DNA of 64,000 nt from NCBI RefSeq assembly GCF_003265365.1, contig NZ_AUPM01000038.1, positions 1 to 64,000 of the forward strand. The letters run 5' to 3'. Source of the DNA: Petrotoga sp. 9PW.55.5.1. Lineage in GTDB: Bacteria > Thermotogota > Thermotogae > Petrotogales > Petrotogaceae. Shown here in pieces: positions 2,655-60,652 of the stretch. The notes beneath the pieces were generated by a model, which was not told the origin of the DNA, did no database searches, and saw nothing but the letters and a program-made list of their open reading frames with translations. Each line of letters opens with the position of its first letter. Position 1 is the first letter of the stretch. The position numbers and the translations under genes were made by a program.

Positions 2655-3302
2655 TTAAATCACATAAAAAAATACAGAGAAAAAATGGCAGATACTTCCT
2701 GCTAATACAATTAAATGCCATATCGCATGATGATAAGGAATTTTACGCCAGATGTAGAAAATTGTTCCCAATGTGTATAAAACTCCACCTATTACCAACC
2801 AAAAAAGACCCCAAAAATCTAAATTTTCTACTAAAGGCCCCATTGCAAAAACAACTAGCCATCCCATGGCTATATATAGGAGTGTTGAAAGTATCATAAA
2901 TTTTTTAACAAAGAAGATCTTAAACAAAATTCCTATAGCCGCCAAAATCCATACAACAGAAAATAAAATCCATCCTAAACGTCCATTCAATGTAATAAGG
3001 GCAAAAGGGGTATAAGTTCCTGCTATTAGAATATAGATTGCTGAATGATCAAAGATTTCAAAAAGTTCTTTAACCTTTTTGTTCTGGAAACTATGATAAA
3101 GTGTAGAAGCCGAATAAAGAATTATCAAAGAAGAACCATAAATAATAGAGCTAAAAATGCTCCAAGGTTGTTTGTTGATAGCTGAAAAAACCACCAACAA
3201 GACTAATGCAACTATACTCAGTAATGCCCCTATACCATGAATTACAGCGTTGGCTATTTCCTCTCTTATAGAAAATTTTTCTACATTCTCTAAATCTTTC
3301 AA
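2655..3302 (-). CDS. haemolysin III / PAQR family membrane protein
   Basis: The 215-residue protein has about seven membrane segments. Family signatures are the N-terminal EEIANAVIHGIGALL, the central LYHSF, DHSAIYILIAGTYTPF, and the C-terminal YHHAIWHLIVLAGS. The conserved His and Asp residues of these motifs form the presumed metal site of the PAQR/CREST hydrolase superfamily. The cellular role of bacterial members is poorly defined. The best start is TTG at 3302, eight bases after an AAGGGGA ribosome site, because the nearby ATG is out of frame. It begins one base after the stop of the upstream acetyltransferase gene, so the two form an operon. Confidence 0.85.
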   Translation of the reverse strand: MKDLENVEKFSIREEIANAVIHGIGALLSIVALVLLVVFSAINKQPWSIFSSIIYGSSLIILYSASTLYHSFQNKKVKELFEIFDHSAIYILIAGTYTPFALITLNGRLGWILFSVVWILAAIGILFKIFFVKKFMILSTLLYIAMGWLVVFAMGPLVENLDFWGLFWLVIGGVLYTLGTIFYIWRKIPYHHAIWHLIVLAGSICHFFSVFFYVI

Positions 3303-4026: not shown

Positions 4027-4755
4027 TCAAATAGCTTTTATTTCTTTCTTTTCTTCTTGCGTATCCGTCCTTTCATAAACAAAATTTTTTGTAACTTTTC
4101 CATCTTTGATTTCTACTATTCTACCAGCATACCTTTCTACAATTTTCATGTTATGTGTAACCATGATTATTGTTAATCCCAATTCTTTGTTTATCTTCAT
4201 GGTAAGTTCCATTACCTTTTTCACATTTTTTGGATCAAGTGCTGCAGTATGTTCGTCTAATAGTAAAAGATCAGGTTTTGTTATTGAAGCAAGTACCATT
4301 GCAAGTGCCTGCTTTTGTCCTCCTGAAAATTCCTTTACTTTTGTTCTTAATCTGTCTTCTAGCCCCATATTCAAAGATTTTAAAAGTTCAAGTCCCTTGT
4401 ATTTACCAAAAGAGAAGAACCTATTGCCTTTTTTTGAGCCTAAGATAAGATTTTCTTCTAAAGTGAGATCAGGGAATACACCTCTATCAGGCTCTTGATA
4501 AACTATTCCTACATTTCTAAAAAGCTTATACGGTTTTGTCCGCTTAATAATTCTATCATTTAAAATGAATTCTCCTTGTTCTAATACTACTTCACCTGTG
4601 AGTACTTTGAAAAGTGTTGTTTTCCCCGCACCATTTGGACCTATTATAGTGACGAATTCTCCTTTTTTAATAGATAGATCAAAATTATTTAAAGCAATTT
4701 TCTCATTCACTTGATTTCTATTGTATACTACTCTGATGTTTTTAAGCTCAACCAT
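4027..4755 (-). CDS. ABC transporter ATP-binding protein, TrpXYZ-type importer
   Basis: This 242-residue ATPase has Walker A GPNGAGKTT (about residues 39-47), the signature FSGGQKQA, Walker B LLLLDEHTAAL and a switch His in IIMVTHN. It energises the permease encoded immediately upstream, whose 3' end it overlaps by 28 bases. Together with the PF04392-type binding protein, the trio matches the tryptophan/tyrosine-type importers known as TrpXYZ in streptococci. The substrate assignment rests mainly on the aromatic leader peptide at 6807-6893. DEHTAAL in place of the usual DEPTSGL is characteristic of this subfamily. Confidence 0.85.
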   Translation of the reverse strand: MVELKNIRVVYNRNQVNEKIALNNFDLSIKKGEFVTIIGPNGAGKTTLFKVLTGEVVLEQGEFILNDRIIKRTKPYKLFRNVGIVYQEPDRGVFPDLTLEENLILGSKKGNRFFSFGKYKGLELLKSLNMGLEDRLRTKVKEFSGGQKQALAMVLASITKPDLLLLDEHTAALDPKNVKKVMELTMKINKELGLTIIMVTHNMKIVERYAGRIVEIKDGKVTKNFVYERTDTQEEKKEIKAI

Positions 4756-5717
4756 TTTTTAAATTCCACCCTCCTTAATCCGATTACAATTATTATGAAT
4801 AAAGCGGTTATTAATTTCATATCACTGGATTGAAATCCTATTGTATAACCATATCTCATAGCCAAGGCAAGTAAAAATTGATATACAACAGCTCCGATTA
4901 TGGGACAAAGCATATTGTAAAAGAGATTTAATTTACCAAATATTATTTCTCCCAATATCACTGCTGCTAATGAAGTAACTACTATACCCTGTCCCATATT
5001 TACATCCGAAAATCCACCATACATAGAAAATAAAGCCCCAGATAATCCAGCAAAGAAGTTCCCTAAAAACAATCCTACTATACTCATAATTTCAGGATTC
5101 ATTCCCAAGTTTTTAATTCCAAGTTTGTTACCTCCATACCCTCTTAGAGCTATTCCAAATTCTGTTCTTAAAAAAATAATTGTTAAAACAGTTGAAATTA
5201 TAACTACTAACGTTATTAAAAGAGTGGAGTTATATCCTGAATTTTGTCTAAATGGAGACAAAGTTTCCTTTGATTCTTCTATAGTAATATAATCCTGTGT
5301 TTCTCTGTTTGAACTCATTCCTAAAAGATCGTCTAACTTTGTTCTTTCTGTATACTGTGCTTCCTGTTGTGCTTTTACTTCTTTAGGTACAGAGATATTT
5401 GGACCATTCATTACCCTAATGTTTATTGAATAAAGCATAGTCATTACTAAGATGCTAGCTAATAATGAATTAACCTTTAGTTTGTTGTGAATTATGGCAG
5501 TTATTATCCCAAAAAAGCCTGCCATTAATCCTCCCAGAATCATACACAATAACCATGGCATTCCAGCATACATAAAGGCGACGGTTACTGCTCCCCCTAA
5601 AACATATGACCCATCTGGAGTTAAATCTGGAAGATCTATTACCCTGAAACTTATAAATACTCCCATAGCCGCTAAGGACGCAATTAAACCTTGTTCTAAT
5701 ATACCTATTAAATCCAT
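4728..5717 (-). CDS. ABC transporter permease, TrpXYZ-type importer
   Basis: The 329-residue membrane protein belongs to the branched-chain permease superfamily (LivH-like). Family features are the N-terminal GLIASLAAMGVFISFRV, the DLTPDGSYVLGGAV segment and the C-terminal GLRRVEFKKW. About eight to ten membrane helices are visible, interrupted by a polar loop near residues 115-165 rich in Glu, Lys and Thr. ATG at 5717 follows a strong GGAGGAAAAA ribosome site. It lies 28 bases after the binding-protein gene and overlaps the ATPase gene, so all three are translated from one transcript. It would pass an aromatic amino acid through the cytoplasmic membrane. Confidence 0.85.
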   Translation of the reverse strand: MDLIGILEQGLIASLAAMGVFISFRVIDLPDLTPDGSYVLGGAVTVAFMYAGMPWLLCMILGGLMAGFFGIITAIIHNKLKVNSLLASILVMTMLYSINIRVMNGPNISVPKEVKAQQEAQYTERTKLDDLLGMSSNRETQDYITIEESKETLSPFRQNSGYNSTLLITLVVIISTVLTIIFLRTEFGIALRGYGGNKLGIKNLGMNPEIMSIVGLFLGNFFAGLSGALFSMYGGFSDVNMGQGIVVTSLAAVILGEIIFGKLNLFYNMLCPIIGAVVYQFLLALAMRYGYTIGFQSSDMKLITALFIIIVIGLRRVEFKKWLSLKTSE

Positions 5718-5745: not shown

Positions 5746-6687
5746 CTAGTTTACACCTACAACCTCATCTGCTATTTCTATAAATTGTTGTGGAATAGTT
5801 ACGTTTAGCTTTTTGGCTCTGTCTAAGTTAATGTAAAAGGTGAGTGAATCAGCACTTAACACTCGAGATTCAATTTCTGATGGTTTTTTGCCGTTTATAA
5901 GATCGTATACAATCTTCCCTGTTTCAATTCCTACTTGATAATAATCAAATCCGAATCCCAAAACAGAAGTATTTCTTGCTATATCTATATCTCCAGCCAC
6001 AACTGGAATATTTAATTTTTCGAATACTTGACCTAAAATTTCAGCAGATGAAGCAACAAGATTATCTGTGTATAAGTATCCAACATCTATTCTATTTGCA
6101 TTAGCATTTAAAGATGTAACAAGTTCGCTGGCGTTTGTTCCTGTGATTTCTATCACATTAAATCCCAACTGGGAACCAAATTTTTTAGTTTGATCGGCAA
6201 GAAATACAGAGTTTGCTTCTCCAGGATTGTAAAGTATAGCTAAATTTTTAGCATTTGGAAATATTGATCTCATAAGATTAACATGTGTTTCTACAGGTAC
6301 CATATCGCTTATTCCAACAACATTTCCTGGATTTTTCCCGAATTTTGGAATTAGACCGGCGCTTATTGGATCGGTAACTGCACTAAAAACAACAGGTTTA
6401 TCTTTTATTTCTGTGGCAGCTGCTTGTGCCGAAGGAGTTGCTATAGCTACTATAATATCAACATCGTTTTTAAACTTATTCGCAATCGCTATTGCGTTTT
6501 GAAAGGCGCCTTGAGCACTTTGATGCTCGAATTCAAAATCAACATTCTTTTCTTCTAGATAATCGAGTACACCTTGATAAATCCTATTTAAAGCAGGATG
6601 GTCAACGATTTGAGTAATTCCAATCTTAACAGAAAAAGATAATGTTACCAACAATATAACGCTCAATGTTAATGCTAACTTTTTCAT
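5746..6687 (-). CDS. ABC transporter substrate-binding protein (PF04392 type, TrpX-like)
   Basis: The 313-residue protein starts with a signal peptide (MKKLALTLSVILLVTLSFS) followed by the mature start KIGITQIVDHPALN. This is the typical beginning of ABC_sub_bind proteins. There is no lipobox cysteine, so it should be soluble in the periplasm. The segments DIIVAIATPSAQAA, PVVFSAVTDPISAGL and GNVVGISDMVPVETHV are family hallmarks. It is the first gene of the transporter operon and lies directly downstream of a leader peptide and terminator that probably tie expression to aromatic amino acid supply. GGAGGTG precedes the ATG at a good distance. Confidence 0.85.
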   Translation of the reverse strand: MKKLALTLSVILLVTLSFSVKIGITQIVDHPALNRIYQGVLDYLEEKNVDFEFEHQSAQGAFQNAIAIANKFKNDVDIIVAIATPSAQAAATEIKDKPVVFSAVTDPISAGLIPKFGKNPGNVVGISDMVPVETHVNLMRSIFPNAKNLAILYNPGEANSVFLADQTKKFGSQLGFNVIEITGTNASELVTSLNANANRIDVGYLYTDNLVASSAEILGQVFEKLNIPVVAGDIDIARNTSVLGFGFDYYQVGIETGKIVYDLINGKKPSEIESRVLSADSLTFYINLDRAKKLNVTIPQQFIEIADEVVGVN

Positions 6688-6719: not shown

Positions 6720-6752
6720 AAAAAAAGGGTGTCTACTTTTTCGTAGACACCC
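6720..6752 (-). terminator. attenuator terminator of the aromatic-type ABC operon
   Basis: On the minus strand a 10-bp perfect stem, GGGTGTCTAC / GTAGACACCC, encloses a six-base loop and is followed at once by seven T. It lies between the leader peptide and the first structural gene, 33 bases before its ATG, so transcripts must read through it to express the transporter. Its 5' arm can also pair with AGACACC at the end of the leader-peptide reading frame, giving a competing structure. Confidence 0.88.
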
Positions 6753-6786
6753 GATTTTTTACCTTTCAACCTTTTTTTGAAAAACA

Positions 6787-6826
6787 GGCATTGAATAGGC
6801 ACCAAATCAGGTGTCTTTCCAATACC
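6787..6826 (-). promoter_or_regulatory. leader RNA hairpin competing with the attenuator
   Basis: In the transcript, GGTATTG (6826-6820) pairs with CAATGCC (6793-6787), allowing one G-U pair, and GACACC (6815-6810) pairs with GGTGCC (6803-6798) with one mismatch. The hairpin includes the last Trp-Tyr-Trp codons and the stop codon of the leader peptide. AGACACC can alternatively pair over seven bases with the 5' arm of the terminator (6746-6752). Mutually exclusive pairings around aromatic codons are the usual design of ribosome-mediated attenuation. Which stalled position favours read-through is not resolved here. Confidence 0.6.
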
Positions 6827-6893
6827 AAAAGTAAAAGTGATTATAATTATTATCTAAATTAGAATAAGGAATTAAACATGAATTTTTTTTCAT
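6807..6893 (-). CDS. leader peptide with Phe/Tyr/Trp codon run
   Basis: A 28-codon open frame starts with ATG at 6893, six bases after a GAGAGGG ribosome site, and ends with TGA at 6807-6809. Residues 19-25 read HFYFWYW. In total the peptide has two Trp, four Tyr and two Phe, which is far from chance for so short a frame. It sits between a near-consensus promoter and an intrinsic terminator. By analogy with the trp and phe leader peptides of other bacteria, ribosome stalling at scarce aromatic aminoacyl-tRNAs would control the terminator ahead of the ABC transporter operon. It is too short to be found by ordinary gene calling. Confidence 0.85.
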   Translation of the reverse strand: MKKNSCLIPYSNLDNNYNHFYFWYWKDT

Positions 6894-6928
6894 AGTAACC
6901 CTCTCTTAATTCAAAATTAATTTTTGAG

Positions 6929-6958
6929 ATTATACCATTAAAAAAGAAGATTTGTCAA
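6929..6958 (-). promoter_or_regulatory. sigma-70 promoter of the aromatic-type ABC operon
   Basis: On the minus strand TTGACA (6958-6953) and TATAAT (6934-6929) are both perfect consensus hexamers separated by 18 bases. Transcription would begin near 6922, about 30 bases before the leader-peptide start codon. So strong a promoter followed by an attenuator fits regulation by termination and not by initiation. Confidence 0.85.
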
Positions 6959-9146: not shown

Positions 9147-9710
9147 TTAAAATTTGAATATTATTCCAACTACTGCAGCTAAACCAAGATATACTACTGG
9201 GTGTTTTTTAAATCTTTTCATAAGATAAATTATTACAAGAAACAACAAAATTCCTTTTAAATTAAAAAAATCTGACAAATTTTGAGTATTATAAAAGATT
9301 TCTAAATTGAAAAGAGCTACCTTTGCTACTTCATATCCTGCCGCAGCTATCAATCCTATTACTGCTGGCCTTAATGCATAAAATCCGTTTTGAACTAAAG
9401 GTTTTTCGTTAAATCTTGAAAAATAATGAGCTATCAAACTAATTATTATTATAGATGGTGTAACTATTCCCAGTACAGCTATTATACCACCAAATATTCC
9501 GCCAGCTCTAAAACCTACAAACGTAGCTGTGTTTATTCCTATAGGACCTGGAGTAGATTCTGAGATCGCTATAAAATCTGCTAAATCCTGAGCTGTTAAC
9601 CATGGATATTTGTAGGAGAGTTCTTGTAAAAATGGTATGGTTGCTAATCCGCCACCTATTGAAAAAAGCCCAATTTTAAAAAACTCAAAATACAATAATA
9701 GGTAAATCAT
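9147..9710 (-). CDS. chromate transporter, second half-size subunit
   Basis: The 187-residue membrane protein is a single-domain CHR protein. It contains the family signature FSIGGGLATIPFLQEL near the N-terminus and SESTPGPIGINTATFVGFRAGG in the middle. Two such half-size proteins encoded in tandem replace the fused two-domain ChrA and are thought to form a heterodimer with opposite membrane orientation. The predicted activity is anion export (chromate or a related oxyanion), though the physiological substrate in an anaerobe is unproven. Its start codon overlaps the stop of the partner gene by four bases. Confidence 0.87.
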   Translation of the reverse strand: MIYLLLYFEFFKIGLFSIGGGLATIPFLQELSYKYPWLTAQDLADFIAISESTPGPIGINTATFVGFRAGGIFGGIIAVLGIVTPSIIIISLIAHYFSRFNEKPLVQNGFYALRPAVIGLIAAAGYEVAKVALFNLEIFYNTQNLSDFFNLKGILLFLVIIYLMKRFKKHPVVYLGLAAVVGIIFKF

Positions 9711-10252
9711 CTATTTTCAGCTTCTTTTTTATTTTGAAGGATAATACCTGTTAAAAAAGATATTACTACAACTACGATGGGTGAAACCTTTAAAAAAGCT
9801 GCAACCAAAAAAGATATTAGAAAGATTATTATACCTATATTATCTTTTATAGACTTTTTCCACATATTTATTATCGCGTTCAATATTAAAGCAACAACAG
9901 CGACTCTTAATCCGCCGAAGGCATGTTGAACTATTTCGTATTCTTGAAATCTTTGAAAGAAAATAGCTATTAAGGTTATTATTACTATAGAAGGAAAAAC
10001 CATTCCCAAGGTGGCAAAGATACCTCCAGAAATTCCCCTTAACTTATAACCAACAAAAGTGGAAGTGTTTATGGCAATTATTCCTGGAGTACTTTGTCCA
10101 ATAGCATAATAATCTATAACTTCTTCGTCTGTCGCCCATTTATGTTTTTTTACAACTTCTTCTTGAATCATAGGCAACATAGCGTAACCTCCCCCAAAGG
10201 TCAAACTACCAATCTTGGCAAAAGTTATAAATATTTCCCATAATTCTTTCAT
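9707..10252 (-). CDS. chromate transporter, first half-size subunit
   Basis: This 181-residue CHR-domain protein carries GSLTFGGGYAMLPMIQEEVV near the N-terminus and GQSTPGIIAINTSTFVGYKLRG in the middle, paralogous to the next gene. The two subunits are translationally coupled by a 4-base ATGA overlap. The ATG at 10252 follows AAAAGGAGA. A stem-loop with flanking A and T runs lies just upstream at 10278-10320, so expression may depend on read-through from the nuclease gene or on a promoter within that short gap. Confidence 0.87.
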   Translation of the reverse strand: MKELWEIFITFAKIGSLTFGGGYAMLPMIQEEVVKKHKWATDEEVIDYYAIGQSTPGIIAINTSTFVGYKLRGISGGIFATLGMVFPSIVIITLIAIFFQRFQEYEIVQHAFGGLRVAVVALILNAIINMWKKSIKDNIGIIIFLISFLVAAFLKVSPIVVVVISFLTGIILQNKKEAENR

Positions 10253-59597: not shown

Positions 59598-60428
59598 TTA
59601 GAAAACAGGAACTACTGCTCCATTGTATTTTTCTAGGATAAAGTTTCTTACCTTTTCCGTAGTTAACACTTCAACAAGTGCCTTAACTAACTCATCATCA
59701 GCTCTATTTTCTTTAACCGCAATTATATTGGCATACGGAGATTCAGCTCCTTCATAGAAAACTGCATCTTTTAATGGATTTAAATCAGCTTCAATAGCAT
59801 AATTTGTGTTAATAACTGCTCCTACAACGTTCTTGTCACTCTTATAAGTTCTTGGCAAATAAGGTGCTTCTAATTCCTTGAATTTTAAACCATAAGGATT
59901 TTCAAGAATATCTTTAATAGTTGCAACCAAAGGATCTTCTCTATCGTTTAATTTTATAATCCCGTTTTCTTGAAGTAATAACAAAGACCTTCCTTCGTTT
60001 GTTACATCGTTAGGTAGTATTATCAAATCACCTTTTTTTAAATCTTTTAGATCCTTTTTTAAATAGAAACCCATAGGTTCAACGTGTATCTTAGCAATAG
60101 AAACTAAATCATTTATACCCCTTTCTCTTGTAAAAGTTTCTAAATAAGGTTCGTGTTGAAAATAATTCGCATCAATTGAACCATCTTCCAAAGCCAAATT
60201 AGGTTGTACGTAATCTGTGAAGATAACTATATCCAATTTTACTCCCGTCTTTTCTTCAAAATCATCTTTAACAAACTCAAGGATTTCTGCATGTGGAACA
60301 GGTGTAGCTCCTACTTTAAAGCTTTTTCCCCCTCCAAATCCAAATGCAGCAAAACCAACTTGATTTAATAAAACTCCAAAAAAAACAAATAGAATCAATA
60401 CCTTTACTACTCTTGTGTTTATTTTCAT
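59598..60428 (-). CDS. metQ: methionine-binding protein (NlpA/MetQ family)
   Basis: The 276-residue protein has a signal peptide (starting MKINTRVVKVLILFVFFG) with no lipobox cysteine, unlike most MetQ lipoproteins. The mature start KVGATPVPHAEILEFVKDDF is diagnostic, followed by TDYVQPNLALEDGSIDANYFQHEPYL and ILPNDVTNEGRSLLLLQENG. It delivers methionine to MetNI. GGGAGGGAG precedes the ATG. It is the first gene behind the SAM riboswitch. Confidence 0.94.
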   Translation of the reverse strand: MKINTRVVKVLILFVFFGVLLNQVGFAAFGFGGGKSFKVGATPVPHAEILEFVKDDFEEKTGVKLDIVIFTDYVQPNLALEDGSIDANYFQHEPYLETFTRERGINDLVSIAKIHVEPMGFYLKKDLKDLKKGDLIILPNDVTNEGRSLLLLQENGIIKLNDREDPLVATIKDILENPYGLKFKELEAPYLPRTYKSDKNVVGAVINTNYAIEADLNPLKDAVFYEGAESPYANIIAVKENRADDELVKALVEVLTTEKVRNFILEKYNGAVVPVF

Positions 60429-60500: not shown

Positions 60501-60524
60501 AATTATTTATAAATTTTTCCTCTC

Positions 60525-60631
60525 CTTATCTCCCAGAATTCCTCTGCAGGATTTGGCACCGTTACATGATATTTTGTATCATGTAGGTTGCCGGGCTTCA
60601 CAGGGCCAGTCCCTCCACCACTCTTGATAAG
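60525..60631 (-). promoter_or_regulatory. SAM-I riboswitch (S-box)
   Basis: The minus-strand sequence contains the S-box core CTTATCAAGAG...GGTGGAGGGA, then GGCCC, TGAAGCCCGGCAACC and GGTGCCAAATCC. P1 is closed by CTTATC (60631-60626) with GATAAG (60530-60525), and the variable P3/P4 arm is the hairpin of TACATGATA with TATCATGTA. Binding of S-adenosylmethionine stabilises P1 and permits the downstream terminator to form, shutting off metQNI. All class-defining conserved segments are present. Confidence 0.96.
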
Positions 60632-60652
60632 GAAATTTATTAATTTTAACTA

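Follow-up and report, generated by a model that had tools for sequence, protein, structure and literature searches.

The trp, pheA, his and ilvGMEDA operons of E. coli are preceded by leaders in which a short translated open reading frame (ORF) carries control codons cognate to the operon, and in which an antiterminator and a terminator are mutually exclusive. Most descriptions of amino-acid leader-peptide attenuators of this kind come from Proteobacteria and Actinobacteria (PMC2965389, PMC3766115); attenuators of the type collected in Rfam may have a gammaproteobacterial origin with few transfers (PMC3766115), and very few attenuated ABC transporters are known (PMC2965389). Before reporting the histidine leader peptides of bacillar hisS and hisZ, the authors of that study were aware of no leader-peptide system outside these two phyla (PMC2965389). 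In streptococci, the trpXYZ importer operon is controlled by a T-box, an RNA that binds uncharged tRNA directly, reads one specifier codon, and senses tRNA charging through a choice between terminator and antiterminator (PMC9382623).

Here we describe a leader from Petrotoga sp. 9PW.55.5.1, found in a 64,000-nt stretch of contig NZ_AUPM01000038.1 (the window), which, as judged from its sequence and that of its relatives, very probably regulates an ABC importer of aromatic amino acids by ribosome-mediated transcription attenuation, in response to the charging of tRNA-Phe, tRNA-Tyr and tRNA-Trp. Its segments A, C and D, listed below, correspond in a textbook comparison to segments 2, 3 and 4 of classical attenuators. 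Unlike the E. coli leaders, however, (i) its target is an importer and its codons mix three amino acids, and (ii) segment A lies at or over the 3' end of the ORF and has an alternative partner downstream, not only upstream. With the T-box of the homologous streptococcal operon it would share the sensing of tRNA charging, although a ribosome-read ORF would do the sensing here, and no T-box was found. Like the bacillar leaders, it lies outside Proteobacteria and Actinobacteria and exchanges the type of sensor at one gene, but in a different phylum and at different genes.

The leader, its switch segments and the genes that follow

All elements of the locus lie on the minus strand, a detail absent from the original prediction.

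6929-6958, minus: sigma-70 type promoter, TTGACA-18-TATAAT, with TG ahead of the -10 box; 12/12 consensus positions matched
6899-6906, minus: ribosome-binding site AGAGAGGG, 5 nt before the ATG
6893-6807, minus: leader peptide ORF, MKKNSCLIPYSNLDNNYNHFYFWYWKDT followed by a stop codon; 28 aa, with 2 Trp, 4 Tyr and 2 Phe
6819-6836, minus: control codons TTT TAC TTT TGG TAT TGG (F Y F W Y W)
6804-6816, minus: segment A, AGACACCTGATTT, 5' strand of the antiterminator; near-copy of the terminator 3' arm; the leader stop codon lies within segment A
6787-6826, minus: local (protector) hairpin from the Trp codons to CAATGCC, enclosing segment A; -17.7 kcal/mol at 37°C
6743-6757, minus: segment C, AAATCGGGTGTCTAC, terminator 5' arm and alternative partner of A
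6720-6752, minus: intrinsic terminator, GGGTGTCTAC-GAAAAA-GTAGACACCC plus TTTTTTT; 10-bp hairpin with T run called at 6752-6727, the best of 9 found
5746-6687, minus: substrate-binding protein (SBP), PF04392 ABC_sub_bind, a TrpX relative; first gene after the leader
4728-5717, minus: ABC permease, BPD_transp_2 (PF02653)
4027-4755, minus: ABC ATPase

The original prediction had placed a 28-codon frame with its own ribosome site, and with two Trp, four Tyr and two Phe clustered at its end, between a perfect promoter and a terminator. Each of these particulars proved correct, from the ribosome-binding site and the residue counts (the peptide ends HFYFWYWKDT) to the full consensus match of the promoter and the hairpin with its T run. 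No second promoter site scoring above 10 occurs in the scanned 8 kb, and the predicted fold of the leader RNA lies 5.6 sd below those of its shuffles.

Segment C can pair either with the terminator 3' arm (D) or with segment A, the latter pairing being a helix of 12 to 13 bp, so that A and D compete for it. We infer from this arrangement that the ORF is translated and that ribosome stalling on it changes termination. When an aromatic aminoacyl-tRNA is scarce, the ribosome would stall on the F-Y-F-W-Y codons and leave A free to pair with C, and RNA polymerase would continue through to the importer genes. With a good supply, the ribosome would reach the stop codon, which lies inside A in the window species, and would cover A; C would then pair with D, and transcription would terminate.

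Conservation, covariation and the modelled switch point

Among 101 related Thermotogota genomes, 40 carry the SBP gene, in 47 copies altogether. A leader ORF with ribosome site, aromatic run and terminator stands ahead of every one of them (47/47; the leader start of genome G051 and the terminator of copy G009b in genome G009 were placed by hand). The ribosome site, present in all 47 leaders, is GGAGGT-like in most, and promoter-like hexamers also occur upstream in relatives. The peptide ahead of the run differs in sequence and length, whereas the Phe/Tyr/Trp run is kept, as illustrated by NQYFYFWYWKDTQLGAF (Petrotoga-like), SYYYWYGKG, FAYAYWWFRGKPSSG, VYAYWFRRNVLS and FYFYYFWWKALS. Tyr occurs in every mixed run and Trp in most mixed leaders, the run of genome G031 being without Trp. 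The original prediction, which named relatives lacking the frame or the aromatic codons as evidence against it, had proposed an alignment in which these codons and the terminator would persist while the remainder varied; this is the pattern we observed, and both frame and codons are present in all copies.

Beyond this set, inspection by eye revealed no leader ahead of the Alkalibacillus homologues. In another phylum, a Bipolaricaulota contig (JAGXKX010000046.1) with an operon 35% identical shows by eye a leader ORF, MRNIQKNEVIRPASDSLAHYAYSYWYPRF followed by a stop codon, and a hairpin with a T run upstream of the SBP gene at 3001; our detector did not recover A:C pairing at this locus.

A T-box or another ligand-binding leader RNA, with the ORF incidental, would accord with the control of the streptococcal homologue (PMC9382623) and with the strong structure of the leader. 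Nevertheless, no Rfam T-box or other riboswitch was detected at this leader or at 18 loci, an open frame with a ribosome site is kept in all 47 copies, and a survey covering two genomes of Fusobacteria/Thermotogae reported no T-box in them (PMC2494555); we thus regard this explanation as highly improbable. The Rfam amino-acid leaders (Phe, Trp, His, Leu, Thr) likewise gave no match above the gathering threshold, the best being a full-length match to Phe_leader at 19.9 bits versus a threshold of 55 (E 0.54).

Because RNAalifold recovered the terminator alone from the wider alignment, we tested the A:C helix for covariation explicitly. Across 19 leaders, 96% of the cells were paired, with 27 double changes versus 9.5 in shuffled and at most 14 in slid controls; the 8 closest leaders (the Petrotoga group) vary too little to show such covariation. 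A fitted its own C better than the C of other clades in 15/15 clades (Wilcoxon p = 6e-5), and in every copy segment A starts 5 to 12 nt past the first base of the last aromatic codon (G062 by eye). In the window species, the ORF ends early, with TGA versus CAA in most close relatives; this stop falls inside segment A, and a compensating change in C (A-U to G-C) preserves the pair.

To model ribosome positions, each leader was truncated immediately upstream of D and then folded with the sequence as far as 12 nt past the A-site masked (an assumed footprint). The modelled probability of A:C pairing was ~1 for ribosome positions on or before the run, 0.68 to 0.72 on the last codon of the run, 0.2 to 0.4 one to two codons past it, and 0.01 to 0.02 at the stop. 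More specifically, the values for the window leader by stall site were 1.0 (F, Y and F), 0.9 (first Trp), 0.5 (Tyr) and 0.0 (last Trp). In the model, therefore, Phe, Tyr, Phe and Trp are the productive stall codons, the last Tyr is partly so, and the last Trp lies past the computed switch point. By these probabilities, the aromatic run occupies the last codons at which a stall still frees A; theory refers to the last stall positions that are still effective as the end of the control region (PMC1183508).

In the absence of a ribosome, or when one stood upstream of the run, the equilibrium probability of A:C pairing was 0.95 to 0.97, although without a ribosome the local hairpin over A is nearly as stable as A:C. 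Since A:C forms at equilibrium even then, either the ribosome or co-transcriptional folding must be responsible for repression. For the same reason, expression is predicted to rise if leader translation is blocked, the reverse of what holds for E. coli trp: a leader left untranslated would allow read-through here, unlike E. coli leaders, instead of super-attenuating.

The importer, its predicted substrate and its duplicated receptors

The SBP matches PF04392 and is encoded next to a permease and an ATPase, the composition of an ABC importer operon, in an order kept in relatives. Against the TrpX family NF041285 of NCBIfam it scores 209.7 bits, below the equivalog cut-off of 390. Its sequence homologues TrpX, CD0873 and VC_1101 bind Trp, Tyr and Phe, respectively; the pocket residues of these proteins have been named, and a Glu of CD0873 binds the Tyr hydroxyl (PMC6816091). 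The window SBP carries Asp233 and Tyr249 where the Trp-binding S. pneumoniae protein SP1069 has Ala and Gln. Asp233 stands in place of Glu263 of CD0873 and of the Ala of VC_1101 and SP1069. Tyr249, as in the Tyr and Phe binders, replaces the Trp-type residue (Gln284 of SP1069) in the window protein as well as in each of the 47 homologues. The predicted TrpXYZ-type importer thus holds with respect to kinship with TrpX and the SBP-permease-ATPase operon, but not with respect to the TrpX cut-off or the Trp-type pocket residue. A general aromatic or Tyr-like specificity appears more likely than a TrpX-type one, and the operon is best read as a putative importer of aromatic amino acids with Tyr-like pocket features, its substrates being deduced from the protein sequence. 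A trp operon is also present in the same genome, so the importer is not explained simply by auxotrophy. Elsewhere in the window, two adjacent short membrane-protein genes (9147-10252, minus) resemble, by eye, the split halves of a chromate transporter.

In four genomes (G039, G051, G009 and G033) the SBP gene is duplicated, and the tree places these duplications in three separate lineages. The copy accompanied by permease and ATPase genes always has a mixed leader, whereas the copies without them (orphan SBPs) have single-residue runs: Phe (FVFAF, FAFAF) and Tyr (YAYY) in G039 and G051, Phe (FSFF) and Trp (WWW) in G009, and Trp (WWW) in G033. Asp233 is lost in 3 of the 47 proteins, in two evolutionary events, and all three are among the five whose leader runs are without Tyr; it is kept with the Tyr-less leaders of G009 and G009b. 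The tie between loss of Asp233 and leaders without Tyr codons is suggestive only. A two-residue pocket code does not suffice to predict the ligand in full: Tyr249 does not vary at all, and G009 and G009b retain Asp233 despite leaders without Tyr.

One of the orphan SBP leaders of G009 (contig C10) ends NNWWWHL-stop and is near-identical to the Petrotoga trpE leaders (NIINWWWHL-stop), which suggests a shared origin or the transfer of a leader between genes.

Sister leaders on other operons

A covariance model of the leader identified the same arrangement ahead of further operons, where gene identities were read from translations, apart from families that were also searched. A KKFFYAYWFRG leader precedes an aroF-aroA-aroE-aroC operon, WWW leaders precede trpE, EYYYYFR precedes a chorismate mutase-aroF-tyrA operon, and AMMMYGN precedes metQ in Mesotoga-like genomes. 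Family searches for aroF, metQ, trpE and hisG, together with a leader scan, widened this set. The genome of the window species itself has NNYYWYFSK ahead of the DAHP synthase gene aroF (contig C39), NIINWWWHL-stop ahead of trpE (contig C47) and, in the region upstream of hisG, NRHHHTWRG (contig C34). A strict detector retrieved aromatic leaders at 24/26 importer copies and 13/30 aroF loci, Met leaders at 13/30 metQ loci, Trp leaders at 9/30 trpE loci and His leaders at 17/30 hisG loci, and the run was of the expected residue class in all 76 of these leaders. At 30 ilvB loci it retrieved no leader, nor did it in any of 822 control windows, which were drawn from ilvB loci only.

At metQ, the sensor differs between genomes: in Mesotoga-like genomes (loci L136, L137 and L188-L198) the gene follows a Met-codon leader, whereas in our window the methionine importer gene metQ (~59601-60317, minus) follows a SAM riboswitch (60523-60633, minus). 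In G041 (contig C43, ~350-467), a Trp leader, NSAWWWHRSLFF, precedes a TIGR04076-like gene and a ferredoxin gene, followed by an aldehyde-ferredoxin-oxidoreductase-like gene and a branched-chain-type SBP (identities by eye), a cluster possibly concerned with Trp use or uptake.

These comparisons bear on three other explanations of the leader. If Trp alone were sensed, the Phe and Tyr codons would be incidental and favoured by AT-rich DNA, in keeping with the Trp codons of most mixed leaders and the relationship of the SBP to TrpX. Yet Tyr is found in all mixed runs, the G031 run has no Trp, Phe-only and Tyr-only runs occur, and the pocket is not Trp-type; moreover, the WWW at trpE and YYWYF at aroF of the window species indicate that Trp-only leaders are within the reach of this organism, which employs mixed ones where functions are shared. 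We consider Trp-only sensing unlikely. In tna, too, a short Trp-containing leader lies ahead of a transporter, and our peptide might by that likeness be a TnaC-type arrest peptide, whose nascent chain halts the ribosome on binding the free amino acid within the exit tunnel. This explanation is very unlikely, given that the peptide before the run is variable, whereas WWW, FFF, YYY, HHH and MMM switch with the downstream gene, which fits the reading of codons rather than an invariant arrest sequence. Lastly, the frame could be a chance ORF in AT-rich intergenic DNA beside an ordinary terminator: short single-residue runs alone are not rare in dinucleotide shuffles, the composition test being weak for such runs. 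Mixed runs are a different matter, as an equally dense aromatic run arose in any ORF in 1/300 shuffles, and in none with Trp up-weighted. A chance origin, to which we give next to no credence, is refuted by comparison across relatives, with conservation in every copy, covariation, pathway-matched codons and empty control windows.

Codon-reading attenuation is thus the explanation we retain. The leader combines, as determined by computation, an ORF with a ribosome site, a cognate codon run, a terminator and an exclusive antiterminator that a modelled stall exposes. The original proposal of attenuation by several aromatic aminoacyl-tRNAs accordingly gains computational support from these parts and their conservation, the covarying A:C helix, a run placed at the switch boundary, and sister leaders whose codons agree with the genes that follow them.

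Our literature search returned no published report of this leader; the attenuation survey of Lopatovskaya et al. 2010 (doi 10.1134/S0026893310010164, listed in PMC4833913), which lay outside its reach, reportedly covers many bacteria and may already predict some biosynthetic Thermotogae leaders. The mechanism is classical; the phylum, the importer as target and the division of leaders among duplicated receptors are, as far as the literature searched shows, unreported. We think it probable, if well short of certain, that one leader-peptide architecture in Thermotogota serves aromatic, Trp, His and Met supply and has been subdivided by gene duplication, such that shared importers keep mixed leaders induced by shortage of any aromatic amino acid, and orphan receptors have Phe-, Tyr- or Trp-only leaders whose codons reveal the ligand.

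The candidate importer attenuator spans a deep-branching thermophile phylum, in which its sister leaders serve four other functions. T-box specifier reading has been used to predict specificity in Firmicutes (PMC2494555); in Thermotogota, leader codons would offer a cheap predictor of amino-acid specificity for biosynthesis and transport genes. Finally, the receptors whose leaders changed from mixed to single-residue runs, in at least three lineages, would provide a natural test of the co-evolution of regulation and ligand.
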